Below are positions 6,848 to 41,771 of a stretch of DNA of 64,000 nucleotides, piece by piece. Location of the stretch: contig JAPPFB010000003.1 of assembly GCA_028875225.1 (NCBI GenBank), positions 1-64,000 on the forward strand. Reading direction: 5' to 3'. Numbering within the stretch: position 1 is the stretch's first letter; each line of letters begins with the position of its first letter. The notes under the pieces are model-generated. The model had not been told where the DNA came from and ran no database searches. It worked only from the letters and a program-made list of their open reading frames with translations. A program made the translations under genes and the position numbers. This DNA is from Chloroflexota bacterium. GTDB lineage: Bacteria; Chloroflexota; Dehalococcoidia; Bin125.

Positions 6848-6940
6848 CCCTGCTCCCGTCCCCCGCTAGACCGTGACGCACGCTCCCCGCATGCTATCCG
6901 CGCCCCCGATAGCGGACAACCTGCGGCGCCCAAACAGGTT

Positions 6941-6973
6941 CCCGTCATACCCGCGCTTGTCGCGGGTATCTCA
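6941..6973. repeat. Palindromic repeat, family B (minus orientation)
   Basis: The copy reads CCCGTCATACCCGCG-CTTGT-CGCGGGTATCTC, an imperfect palindrome centred on CCCGCG/CGCGGG with flanking ATAC/GTAT. The same element recurs at 7061, 20891, 21001, 40803, 42416 and 42482. It lies between genes, in the 250-bp gap upstream of the nuoE-like gene. Confidence 0.8.
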
Positions 6974-30502: not shown

Positions 30503-31915
30503 ATGTCGAACCCATCCAACCATCCCGCAGATCTGTCGCACAAACTGCGCTCCTTGCCCAGCGTCGACCGCGTGCTCTCGGAGCCCGCCCTCACGGCTGT
30601 GCTGGAGCAATGGCCCAGACCGCAGGTCGTCGAGGCCGTCCGCGCCGAGCTGGACAGCGCCCGCGCCCTGCTTGGCGCCGGCAACGGCGCCGATGCCGCA
30701 TTCGCCCCGGCCGACATCGCCGAGTCGGCCGGACACGCCCTCAGTGTGCAGCTGCAGCCGTCCCTGCGCCGAGTGATCAACGCCACGGGCGTCGTCATTC
30801 ACACCAATCTGGGACGAGCCCCCGCCTCCGACGCCGCGGCCCGGGCCATGTCCGAAGCCGCAGCCGGATACTCGAACCTCGAGTACGATCTCGACGCCGG
30901 CGAACGCGGCTCGCGCGCCAAGCACCTCGAGTCCTTGCTCCAGGCGCTGACCGGCGCCGAAGCCGGCATCGCCGTCAACAACAACGCTGCCGCGCTCTAT
31001 CTCGTCATGGCCGCGTCGTGCAGTAGACGTGAGGTGATCGTCTCCCGAGGCCAGGCGGTCGAGATCGGGGGCGGCTTCCGTATCCCCGATGTCCTCCGCG
31101 ACGCCGGCGCCACGCTGGTCGAGGTCGGCACCACCAACCGCACCCGAGCCGCCGACTATGCCGCGGTCTTGCACAGAGATACGGCGGCCATTCTGCGAGT
31201 CCACTCCTCCAACTTCCGCATCGTCGGTTTCACCGAGGAACCGTCGCTGGCCGAGCTTCGCAACGTTGCCGACCGCAACACGAGGGGACTGCCGACACTG
31301 CTGATCGACGACGTCGGCAGCGGATGCCTGCTCGACACCCGACAGTTCGGACTCGCCTACGAACCACGACCACAGGACAGCATCGAAGCCGGCGCCGACC
31401 TCGTTCTGTTCAGCGGCGACAAGCTGCTCGGCGGACCCCAGGCCGGCCTGATCATCGGCAAGCAAGCCGCGGTCAACCGCCTTCGTTCCCATCCCCTGAT
31501 GCGCGTTCTGCGACCCGACAAAGCCGCCATCGCCGGACTCAGCGCCACCCTCCAGCACTATCTCCTGGGAGATGCCGTCGAAACCGTCCCCATCTGGCGC
31601 ATGATCGCTGCCGAACCCGACCAACTCCGGCAGCGCGCCGAACAATGGCGCTCCGCCGTCGGCGCCGGCGACGTCGAACCCGCCGACTCCGCCATTGGCG
31701 GCGGCTCGCTGCCCGCCGAATCTCGCCCAACGTTCGTCTGGACATTCCCGCACTCGCATCCCACCGACGCCGCCCGCCAGCTCCGCAATCGACCAGTCCC
31801 GATCATCGTTCGCGTCGAACGCGACCGCCTGATCCTCGATCCGCGCACCGTGCTGCCCGGCGAGGACGCCGAAGTCATCGCCGCCCTCAGGCAACTGGTC
31901 GGCGGCGACGCGTGA
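30503..31915 (+). CDS. selA: L-seryl-tRNA(Sec) selenium transferase
   Basis: A 470-residue PLP enzyme converting Ser-tRNA(Sec) to Sec-tRNA(Sec). Signatures are LRRVINATGVVIHTNLGRAP near 90, YSNLEYDLDAGERGSR, NNNAAALYL, and the PLP lysine Lys307 in FSGDKLLGGPQAG, then HPLMRVLRPDK. The ATG at 30503 was chosen over an in-frame GTG/ATG 93 nt upstream because homology begins there. It shows that the organism makes selenocysteine, and so bears on the two TGA-containing genes at 39.6-40.6 kb. selB, selD and tRNA-Sec are not in the window. Confidence 0.96.
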   Translation: MSNPSNHPADLSHKLRSLPSVDRVLSEPALTAVLEQWPRPQVVEAVRAELDSARALLGAGNGADAAFAPADIAESAGHALSVQLQPSLRRVINATGVVIHTNLGRAPASDAAARAMSEAAAGYSNLEYDLDAGERGSRAKHLESLLQALTGAEAGIAVNNNAAALYLVMAASCSRREVIVSRGQAVEIGGGFRIPDVLRDAGATLVEVGTTNRTRAADYAAVLHRDTAAILRVHSSNFRIVGFTEEPSLAELRNVADRNTRGLPTLLIDDVGSGCLLDTRQFGLAYEPRPQDSIEAGADLVLFSGDKLLGGPQAGLIIGKQAAVNRLRSHPLMRVLRPDKAAIAGLSATLQHYLLGDAVETVPIWRMIAAEPDQLRQRAEQWRSAVGAGDVEPADSAIGGGSLPAESRPTFVWTFPHSHPTDAARQLRNRPVPIIVRVERDRLILDPRTVLPGEDAEVIAALRQLVGGDA

Positions 31916-38533: not shown

Positions 38534-39604
38534 CTAAACGGGGGGCAGTCCGGGCAGCTCGCAGGAGAAGTCGAACTCGACCGGGGCATGCACGGGATGC
38601 GTCGATCCGGCCAGGCCCCCGCTGAACACCGCCGAGTACATGCCGCTGCCGCCGGCCACGATCAGCACGATGTCTTCCGGCCCGCGCAGCGCCGGAAGAT
38701 CGCCGCCACCGTCCGGGATCCGTCGCTTCGTCGCCCAGCCTCGCATGGTGGCGCTGGGAGTCACGGCCCGCCTGGTCAGTTCGTCGAGGACGTCGTCACG
38801 GCCCAGTCCGGCCGAGGCCAGAACGCCGGCGTGGACCGGATTCAAGGCGACGATCACGGGGCCCTTCCCGATCTGCGTGTTGTTCGCCCCGGGGATGGCG
38901 ATGGCGCCGGCGACCACGCGAAGGATGCGCTCATGGGCCTCGGGATCGTCGTCGTTGGTCTGCATCATCACCGAGTGCGGCGCGTCGACGCCGACCAGCG
39001 TGACGGCGGACTGCTCGGCCTCATAGCCGAAGGACGTGTGCAACGGCGGGAACGGGCTCCCCTCTTCGTCTTCGGCAAGACAGCAGGTGAACTTGCCCGG
39101 CTGTCCCAGCGCCGCCATGTCGCCGTGACCCGGCCGGGCCCCGCCGATATTCATCAGGCACAGCCGCAGCGCGCGGCCAATGCTGGCGTTGGCGCGGTGG
39201 CCGGGACCCAGCGCGCCCCAACCCGACGCAATCGGCCCGCAGACCTCCCGCGCCGGGCCGTTGACGATGATCACCGGCCCCATCCCGTGGGTCGTCGACT
39301 GCATGTTGTCAATGTCGAACTCGGGATCGCCAACGGCCCGCACGGCGGCCAGCACGACGGGGAAGTGCTCCGGCCGGCAACCGGCCATGACGGCGTTGAT
39401 TGCGATCTTCTCGACCGTCGCTTCACCGGGTCCAATCTGGCCGACGATGATGTCCGGCTCGAGTTCCACCCCCGCCAGCATGGACTCCACCCGAGCCTCG
39501 GTCGGGATTATGACCGGCAGGCCGTCAGTCCATTCGCGCAGGTGAAAGAGCTCGAGCGCCGACGCCTCGTCCGGGGCCTGGTGGCGCGTGGCCCGCAGCT
39601 TCAC
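38534..39604 (-). CDS. Conserved protein coupled to the UGSC-type selenoprotein
   Basis: A 356-residue protein from a GTG at 39604 that overlaps the stop of the UGSC-type gene (GTGA). Strongly patterned segments include ATVEKIAINAVMAGCRPEHF near 62, IVNGPAREVCGP near 112, GPGHRANASIGRALRLCLMN near 133 and KFTCCLAEDEEGSPFPP near 170. They imply a conserved, Cys-bearing enzyme-like fold. I recall similar proteins next to UGSC-type proteins but cannot name a function. Coupling indicates the two products act together, plausibly as a complex. Confidence 0.7.
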   Translation of the reverse strand: MKLRATRHQAPDEASALELFHLREWTDGLPVIIPTEARVESMLAGVELEPDIIVGQIGPGEATVEKIAINAVMAGCRPEHFPVVLAAVRAVGDPEFDIDNMQSTTHGMGPVIIVNGPAREVCGPIASGWGALGPGHRANASIGRALRLCLMNIGGARPGHGDMAALGQPGKFTCCLAEDEEGSPFPPLHTSFGYEAEQSAVTLVGVDAPHSVMMQTNDDDPEAHERILRVVAGAIAIPGANNTQIGKGPVIVALNPVHAGVLASAGLGRDDVLDELTRRAVTPSATMRGWATKRRIPDGGGDLPALRGPEDIVLIVAGGSGMYSAVFSGGLAGSTHPVHAPVEFDFSCELPGLPPV

Positions 39605-40131
39605 AGCCGGCGTCCCTCGATCAACTCGATGATGCCCGGCGCCGCCTCGCGGGCCACCCGGGCCAGATTCTCGTCTCCGGTGCCGGAGCAGGGATGCGGC
39701 AGGACACAGCGTGGAATCGCCGGCATGCCCACGGCCTCGGCGGTGAAGGCGGCCAGTTCGACGAACGCCTCGGTCACGATGGCCACGGCCGGCAGTCCGG
39801 CCCTGGCGAAGATCGCTCCGTCACGCACGGTGCCGGACGTGCATCCGCCTCAATGCCCCCAGGCCGCAAGCACGACGTCGCATTCCTCGGTGATCGCCGC
39901 GACCTGTTCGTCGGTCACCGGTGCGACGTTGGGTTTCTGGTAGTGGCGGAACGTTGCCCGAGGCATCGCCGACGCGAGCTCCGACTCCAGCTTGTGCATG
40001 AACTCCGTGCCGTCGGGGAACGCGTTCGAGACGAGGCCGACGACAATCGGGCCACTCGTGTCGGCAAAGAGTTCGTACGATTCAATCTCCACGCCGCCCT
40101 CGGCGGTGGGATCGAGGAAGGTAACAGGCAT
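39601..40131 (-). CDS. UGSC-type selenoprotein, Sec at in-frame TGA (39850-39852)
   Basis: A 176-residue protein if the TGA at codon 94 is read as selenocysteine. Residues 1-93 end CDVVLAAWGH; then U94-G-G-C97-TSGTVRDGAIFARAGLPAVAI follows in the same frame to the stop at 39601. The U-G-(S/G)-C followed by TS..VRDG..F...G.P matches the UGSC (seleno)protein family. Conventional calling gives two fragments (39850-40131 and 39601-39828), neither with a complete motif. The ATG at 40131 has AGGAG 7 nt upstream. A 7-bp hairpin follows the TGA. The gene is 21 bp after the Sec-containing AhpD-like gene and coupled to the downstream partner. Function is unknown; U-x2-C implies thiol/selenol redox chemistry. 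Confidence 0.85.
39823..39844 (-). promoter_or_regulatory. Candidate SECIS hairpin of the UGSC-type gene
   Basis: On the minus strand, 5 nt after the TGA, ATGCACG-TCCGGCAC-CGTGCGT can form a 7-bp stem (one U-G wobble) with an 8-nt loop containing GG. The UGA-to-loop distance (12 nt) is a little short compared with the bacterial consensus, so this element is less certain than the one in the neighbouring gene. Confidence 0.5.
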
Positions 40132-40152: not shown

Positions 40153-40638
40153 CTAGGGGATTTCCGTCGGGCATTCGCGATGAATGCCCAGTACCGCCAA
40201 CTGCCGGCCACCGCCAACGAAACAGGCGACGCAGGTGGAGAGATCAAGGATCTCGTCGTCAGCGAACAACGACCGTAGGCCGACCCAGTAGTCGTCGTCC
40301 ATCGACGAGTGGTCGTAACAGAAGCGCTCCGCGAAATCGATCGCGGCGCGTTCCCGATCGGTGTAGAGCGGGCTCTCGCGATAGTCCGAGACCTGCGTGT
40401 ATTCCTGTTCAGTCAGGCCGTTCTGCATCGCCGATGCAGAGCGAGTCGCCAGTCAAACCGAGCATTCATTGATCTCGGCGATGCGCATGCGGACGAGCTC
40501 TCGCTCACGGACGGGCAGTTGGCTGTGTTCGATGACCGCGCGCGACAGCGCTGACATCGCCGCGCCGAGTTCGGGTCGGGACTGGAACAGTCGAGTACTC
40601 TCTTCGCCGTTACCCGGGGCGATATCGATTCGTGCCAT
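40153..40638 (-). CDS. Carboxymuconolactone decarboxylase/AhpD-like selenoprotein, Sec at in-frame TGA (40453-40455)
   Basis: A 161-residue protein if the TGA at codon 62 is Sec. The N-part ends RELVRMRIAEINECSV, then U62-LATRSASAMQNGLTEQEY continues in frame to 40153. In the family the motif is E-x2-C-x2-C; here it is C59-S-V-U62, so Sec replaces the resolving or attacking Cys. The flanking pattern (RIAE.N.C..C...R....GL.E) and the later ERAAIDFAERFCYD helix are typical of the AhpD-like peroxidase/reductase fold. Start ATG at 40638 has AAGGAG upstream. A near-ideal SECIS hairpin follows the TGA. It is the first gene of a three-gene operon with the UGSC-type selenoprotein. Confidence 0.88.
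40422..40440 (-). promoter_or_regulatory. SECIS hairpin of the AhpD-like selenoprotein gene
   Basis: On the minus strand, 12 nt after the TGA, TCTGCATC-GGC-GATGCAGA is a perfect 8-bp stem with a 3-nt GGC loop. The loop begins 20 nt after the UGA. Bacterial SECIS elements are hairpins in the coding sequence right after the UGA with a small G-containing apical loop about 16-37 nt away, so this fits well. Confidence 0.8.
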
Positions 40639-40849: not shown

Positions 40850-41626
40850 CTAGTTCGCGCGGGTGCCGCCGTCGACGTTGTAGATTCCGCCCGTGATGTA
40901 GGAGGCGTCGTCGCTGGCGAGAAAGGCGACCATCGCCGCGATCTCCTCGGCCTCGCCGTAGCGTCTCATCGGCGTTGATGCGGACAGGCTGCGGTGGACG
41001 GCCTCCGGGTCGTCCGGATTGACGCCCCGTTCCATCGCGCGCATCATGCGCGTCTCGATCGGTCCCGGGCAGATGGCGTTGACGCGGATGCCATCGTCGA
41101 CCAGGGCGATTGCGGCCGATTTGGTCAGCCCCACGACCGCGCTCTTGCTGGCCCCGTACGCGGCAGCCGAGGCGGTCGCCTGGAGCCCGGCGACCGAGGC
41201 CGTGTTGATGATCGCGCCGCGACCCGCTGCCTGCATTATGCGTCCGACGGCCTGCAGGCCGAGAAAGACGCCCTTGACGTTGACCGCGAAGACGCGGTCG
41301 AACTCGTCCTCCGGATAGTCCAGCAGCGATCCGACCCAGCCCTCGATCCCGGCATTGTTGAAGAACACATCGATCTGTCCGAAATGGTCGAGCGCCGCCT
41401 GGACGTAGCCGTCAACCTCGCCGGCCACGGTGACGTCAGCTTCACAGGTCGCAATCTCACCGCCGGCACGTCGCACCGCGGCCACGGTCTCGTCGAGATC
41501 CGAGTTGGGCAGGTCGACGGCCAGGATCCGGGCGCCCTCCGAGGCAAACCGGACGGCGGTCGCTCGGCCAATGCCGCCGGCCGCTCCGGTGATCACCACG
41601 ACCTTGCCTGCGAACCGGTCCGTCAT
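40850..41626 (-). CDS. Short-chain dehydrogenase/reductase
   Basis: A 258-residue classical SDR. It has TGAAGGIGRA near residue 13, the DLPNSD segment after beta-2 (an Asp that favours NAD), NNAGIEG near 88, Ser in INTASVAG, and Tyr-x3-Lys in AAYGASKSAVVG. The C-terminus GGIYNVDGGTRAN is typical. The ATG at 41626 is preferred over one two codons upstream because GGGAGG then has a normal spacing. The substrate is unknown. Confidence 0.94.
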   Translation of the reverse strand: MTDRFAGKVVVITGAAGGIGRATAVRFASEGARILAVDLPNSDLDETVAAVRRAGGEIATCEADVTVAGEVDGYVQAALDHFGQIDVFFNNAGIEGWVGSLLDYPEDEFDRVFAVNVKGVFLGLQAVGRIMQAAGRGAIINTASVAGLQATASAAAYGASKSAVVGLTKSAAIALVDDGIRVNAICPGPIETRMMRAMERGVNPDDPEAVHRSLSASTPMRRYGEAEEIAAMVAFLASDDASYITGGIYNVDGGTRAN

Positions 41627-41771
41627 CCCCATCCTCCCTCTTCATTCAGGTTCCTGCGCCAGTCTGCGACCACCGGGGTCAGTCTATGGAGATCCAATCG
41701 CAGGTTTCACCCTTGGACCGCGCTCTAGACTGGGCACTCCGAAGGCGTCGGGGATGGAGAGATGTTCGAGG

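Follow-up and report, generated by a model that had tools for sequence, protein, structure and literature searches.

A selenocysteine-containing UGSC-family protein and its partner protein P in a Dehalococcoidia genome

The UGSC family of selenoproteins (PF24696, NF041046) is known from marine metagenomes; a survey of these proposes a thioredoxin-like fold for it and describes a conserved domain, 'Unknown_1', that is fused to UGSC (PMC2398784). A second group of selenoproteins relevant here is selenoprotein B of glycine, betaine, sarcosine and D-proline reductase (GrdB/PrdB; PF07355, TIGR01917 and TIGR01918), whose partner is the Gly_reductase proprotein (PF09338). Among bacteria, a review of 2026 gives a Methylomirabilota MAG as having the largest selenoproteome, with 63 genes, and the Olavius Delta 1 symbiont has 57 (PMC13188914).

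Here we report a UGSC locus in a 64,000-nucleotide stretch of DNA (the window; positions 1 to 64,000 of contig JAPPFB010000003.1, assembly GCA_028875225.1) from a Chloroflexota bacterium of the class Dehalococcoidia. Taken alone, the locus adds one more member to an established family. Its interest lies in the partner protein, in a possible kinship with selenoprotein B and in a record expansion of the family in a relative.

A UGSC-family gene with an in-frame TGA

The UGSC gene was placed at its correct span by the initial annotation, which left the strand unstated; it lies on the minus strand, with its ATG at 40131, an in-frame TGA at codon 94 and a TGA stop at 39603-39601 (Table 1). The read-through protein contains AAWGH-U-GGCTSGTVRDG exactly as annotated and matches PF24696 with 141.9 bits (gathering threshold 25) at model positions 3-170, that is, over 168 of the 172 positions, in agreement with the proposed membership of the UGSC family. 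The two fragments that had been joined across the TGA into one 176-residue protein also match contiguous parts of the model separately, the upstream half at positions 3-92 (43 bits) and the downstream half at positions 101-170 (63 bits on its own). A chance joining is thus excluded, and the part downstream of the TGA is related to the family.

Table 1 Features of the UGSC locus and of the window
Feature	Position	Strand	Basis
selA (selenocysteine synthase), within the window	30773..31852	+	PF03841, 416 bits
Partner protein P gene, 356 aa	38534..39604	-	Adjacency, fusion, co-occurrence
UGSC-family selenoprotein gene, 176 aa including Sec94	39601..40131	-	Translation with TGA as U; PF24696; conserved in L084 and L091
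SECIS hairpin, UCCG-G-CAC-(CGUGC)-GUG-A-CGGA	39817..39837	-	Silent-site invariance, compensatory change
7-bp hairpin of the initial annotation (39844-39838 / 39829-39823)	39823..39844	-	Present in the window, not conserved
TGA read as selenocysteine (U94), U-G-G-C motif	39850..39852	-	Homologue alignment; Cys homologues have TGC
CMD/AhpD-like selenoprotein gene, 161 aa, CSVU motif, TGA 40455-40453	40153..40638	-	PF02627, 55 bits
SDR oxidoreductase gene, neighbour	40850..41632	-	Orthologue adjoins UGSC in L084

As in the family at large, the match runs along the whole length, selenocysteine (Sec) stands in a UxxC motif and Cys homologues are rare. The window protein and its two congeners differ in having UGGC instead of UGSC, and the window protein scores 104.3 bits against the NF041046 equivalog, below the curated cut-off of 125, which places it in the same family, outside the equivalog core. 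The Gly in place of Ser, presented in the initial annotation as a departure from the family, is indeed there, but it is a minor and recurrent change and not a distinctive one, with UGGC, UGAC and UGTC all recurring among relatives. The subgroup of the window protein, 'xYGHUGSCTSGTVRDG', also includes proteins of Acidimicrobiia and Pseudomonadales. In the active-site motif U94-G95-G96-C97, position 94 (solely Sec or Cys), Gly95 and Cys97 are invariant among 71 aligned homologues. The Cys forms are encoded by TGC, one of the two codons considered beforehand, as seen in Cryobacterium (L111), Natrialba asiatica (L137), a Sphingomonas MAG (L149) and Mycobacterium gordonae (L171).

In any single genome, an in-frame TGA would look identical if the gene were a pseudogene or a sequencing or assembly error, in which a TGC or TGT had become TGA and only a 93-aa fragment were made. 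However, the TGA is common to two congeners (L084 and L091, both UGGC), which also keep the downstream frame, and to nearly all homologues across phyla. Between the congeners, dN downstream of the TGA is 0.03-0.04 and dS 0.39-0.71, giving a dN/dS of ~0.04-0.09, and the upstream part is as constrained (about 0.05 on both sides). Silent sites are frozen within the hairpin described below, and the window genome (3.2 Mb, 96% complete) encodes the full Sec machinery: a tRNA-Sec with anticodon TCA, SelB, SelA and SelD. The conservation of the TGA and the dN/dS values rule out a pseudogene or an assembly error, to which we give practically no credence, and the original argument that the interrupted genes are very unlikely to be chance mutations is upheld by these observations. 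Together, the sequence comparisons make it virtually certain that the locus encodes a genuine Sec protein of the UGSC family. The window genome has four UGSC genes with exactly one TGA in each, and its SelD gene has an in-frame TGA of its own (G000:C23:272746-273687).

UGA94 is most probably translated as Sec with the help of a SECIS element directly downstream. The hairpin lies within the first ~40 nt after the UGA, as is characteristic of bacterial SECIS elements, and has 4+3 bp, a G/A mismatch and an apical loop ~20 nt past the UGA. The 27 Sec-coding homologues of the window subgroup that were compared come from Dehalococcoidia, Acidimicrobiia, Gammaproteobacteria and elsewhere. Their codons +5 to +10 past the TGA are free of synonymous variation, while other degenerate positions of the same sequences have a mean codon entropy of 1.59 bits and a lowest value of 0.54. 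The frozen segment, CCGGCACCGTGCGTGACGG, corresponds to the fold UCCG-G-CAC-(CGUGC)-GUG-A-CGG(A). Three sequences of the window subfamily carry a compensatory change from C-G to U-A in the stem, and in the Cys homologue of Cryobacterium (TGC) the segment is altered and the CAC/GUG pairing is gone. In the other large UGSC subgroup, the corresponding position is occupied by a 7-bp stem with a GUN loop; 84% of its cells are paired, compared with at most 49% when the stem is slid; none of 1000 shuffles reaches 84% (129 distinct sequences). The 7-bp hairpin first reported after the TGA is present in the window without being conserved, its first (outer) pair being lost in 26 of the 27 relatives and its last (inner) pair in 24, and the SECIS is the other hairpin listed in Table 1.

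The UGSC gene had been described as the second selenoprotein gene of an operon. A CMD/AhpD-like CxxU selenoprotein gene just upstream is supported, but it is no fixed part of the UGSC unit and is absent from most relatives. Among the loci examined, it was found upstream of UGSC only in the window and in L091, with its TGA conserved; L084 has a C-terminal remnant comprising the last ~13 codons (VLGAHRQCPTEIP-stop, 6902-6943).

The partner protein P

The functional partner of UGSC is the next gene downstream, which encodes a protein that we call P and which the initial annotation overlooked. The GTG start of P overlaps the UGSC stop (GTGA). Of 148 genomes of the class, 45 have UGSC, 45 have P and 44 have both (Fisher P 2e-35), so that 146 of the 148 have both or neither; the two exceptions are weak matches. 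Conversely, 80 P loci in named genomes of the GTDB collection were chosen regardless of UGSC; it was present at 73, and several of the others are cut by contig ends. The two proteins are also found naturally fused, either as UGSC-P or as P-UGSC, and the structure predicted for a natural fusion has a pTM of 0.90. Because of this co-occurrence, adjacency and fusion in both orders, P belongs to the same functional unit as UGSC, and by these comparative data it is very probably an obligate partner. We hold the identity of UGSC and its partnership with P, taken jointly and with the chemistry set aside, with good confidence.

P matched no family in Pfam or NCBIfam. Sequence and fold searches of the PDB, in which structures matching the UGSC domain took up the list and P was hardly covered, returned no relative of P and no chemical clue. 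The P family is large and widespread, with at least 586 matching stretches in the GTDB collection. Like P, 'Unknown_1' of the marine survey is a conserved domain fused to UGSC (PMC2398784), and the two are probably the same.

The genes around UGSC loci are catabolic, including those for CoA-transferase III, SDR, acyl-CoA dehydrogenase and nitrile hydratase; they vary, and no single catabolic neighbour is conserved across the loci.

Two further P loci deserve mention. Bacillus dakarensis, a named isolate and thus a handy laboratory source, encodes a UGSC-P fusion with an extra C-terminal segment containing CLDC (L147:3371-5383). A contig labelled Klebsiella pneumoniae (L116) carries a UGSC-P pair that is nearest to the aquatic subgroup and is probably a mislabelled MAG.

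Fold, relation to selenoprotein B and a possible mechanism

The window UGSC protein is predicted to consist of five alternating beta-alpha units (pLDDT 93.5), with Sec94 at the N-terminus of a helix (residues 95-110). Its fold neighbours in the PDB are flavodoxin-like, receiver and lumazine-synthase-like proteins at Z ~9-11. Since several fold types match at this level, only the common arrangement can be claimed: UGSC is predicted to have a flavodoxin/Rossmann-like fold and not a thioredoxin-like one. The alternating beta/alpha order of the five strands, which comes from a model and not from a solved structure, does not conform to a thioredoxin fold.

These predictions bear on the proposal of 2008 that UGSC is a thioredoxin-type general thiol-disulphide oxidoreductase, for which P would be a redox client or an unrelated operon mate. 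The UxxC motif, the thioredoxin-like fold put forward in the metagenome paper (PMC2398784) and the AhpD-like CxxU selenoprotein next door are all in keeping with it. However, the confident model and its flavodoxin- and receiver-type neighbours speak against such a fold, P is obligate and fused to UGSC, and the sequence kinship points to selenoprotein B. We therefore regard a thioredoxin-type function as unlikely.

The evidence for that kinship is as follows. An alignment of UGSC with GrdB/PrdB-type sequences of the class in hhalign gave a probability of 91.9 and an E-value of 6.9e-7, with Sec on Sec, and 15 of 71 UGSC proteins matched TIGR01917 (gly_red_sel_B; best E 2.4e-6). UGSC and GrdB/PrdB have the same Sec-centred C-terminal region, with the pattern 'DxVxxxxxUGxxT......E..GIP', but only ~70 columns are common to both, and UGSC is without the N-terminal region of GrdB. 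The window protein has no match to PF07355 (GRDB) even at E 10. As to the partner, P takes the place that Gly_reductase has in glycine and proline reductase, and it is unrelated both to PF09338 and to the N-terminal part of GrdB; PF09338, the Gly_reductase/PrdA-type subunit, has no match in the window genome. UGSC thus appears to be remotely homologous to selenoprotein B in its Sec domain; that it is a reduced form of this domain is a reading that we hold tentatively, at somewhat short of an even chance. Such kinship, with no PF07355 match in the protein and none to PF09338 in the genome, would mean that UGSC is likely to work like selenoprotein B without being a member of that family.

Small GrdB/PrdB-like proteins that match the C-terminal part of PF07355 are common in Dehalococcoidia (L184-L191). 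Those that we read through, at L184-L188 and L190-L192, have an in-frame TGA and a U-x-x-C motif. Five GrdB/PrdB-like loci are present in the window genome, including G000 C29:373-765, C27:9240-13206 and C17:205576-205935; the read-through covers the loci of other genomes.

We then propose a mechanistic model for UGSC and P. UGSC would be one half of a two-component enzyme, with the product of the overlapping P gene as the other half, and the UGSC domain would derive its kinship from the Sec domain of GrdB/PrdB, of which it would be a reduced version. The selenolate of Sec94, capping the N-terminus of its helix beside the invariant Gly95 and Cys97, may attack a substrate bound to P at one of its carbon-heteroatom bonds. 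The product would be released by reduction, leaving a selenenyl-sulphide between Sec94 and Cys97, which a thiol donor would then reset; in the window genome, the CxxU AhpD-like selenoprotein encoded next to UGSC could serve as this donor. Large sets of paralogues with sequence-diverged P halves would represent many substrate specificities served by one chemistry, and the varying catabolic neighbours fit a substrate range provided by diversified P halves. Argued by analogy, this selenoprotein-B-type chemistry is possible, though we place it slightly below an even bet.

A different role, in metal or selenium handling, would have Sec94, Cys97 and the conserved Lys66, Asp104 and His146 bind a soft metal or carry selenium or sulphur. 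The conserved Cys and His residues would suit it, and other selenoproteins of unknown function have been proposed as metal ligands (PMC13188914). The neighbours are catabolic, however, and not related to transport or metal resistance, and at least 146 diverged copies in one genome (see below) fit substrate diversification better, which makes such a role improbable.

The broader reading, in which UGSC and P constitute a widespread new class of two-component selenoenzymes with selenoprotein-B-type chemistry and well over 100 paralogues per genome in some groundwater Dehalococcoidia, seems to us evenly balanced between right and wrong. With P, the natural fusions and the kinship to selenoprotein B, there is now a definite two-domain protein that can be expressed and assayed, and the kinship renders an old orphan family testable.

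Paralogue expansion in a groundwater relative

Chloroflexi bacterium NC_groundwater_644_Ag_B-0.1um_60_123 (JACPQD01, G027), which probably belongs to the Dehalococcoidia like the window genome, encodes no fewer than 146 UGSC genes with a TGA, mostly as UGSC-P fusions (e.g. L210-L227). Of its 208 candidates 150 were scored; all 150 exceed the UGSC profile cut-off, and 146 have an in-frame TGA. The assembly has an estimated contamination of 7%. In 360 kb sampled from this assembly there are 69 UGSC domains, 57 of them fused to P; the motif is UG-x-C throughout, x standing for S, G, T, A, N, D or L. A mixture of strains is ruled out as the source of the expansion, as nearest paralogues in this sample have a median identity of 70%, with no pair at 95% or above.

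General reassignment of TGA is likewise ruled out: these 69 UGSC domains carry TGA at the motif, and the 67 P domains of the same 360 kb (21,697 codons) contain none. The genome encodes SelB; a search of the assembly for tRNA-Sec found none, and the assembly may therefore lack it.

The UGSC set of JACPQD01 is more than twice the largest bacterial selenoprotein set that we found reported (63). The Methylomirabilota MAG and Olavius Delta 1 are likewise rich in selenoproteins (PMC13188914), whereas in JACPQD01 at least 146 come from a single family. If true, one cell would insert Sec at no fewer than 146 different genes of one family, and the known ceiling of the bacterial selenoproteome would be lifted from 63 to at least 146. 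Standard gene calling cuts such genes at the TGA and can thus hide a major enzyme family. For SAR202 bacteria of the same class, the main text of a previous study makes no mention of selenium or UGSC and describes expansions of other catabolic enzymes, with up to 114 flavin monooxygenases (PMC6946804).
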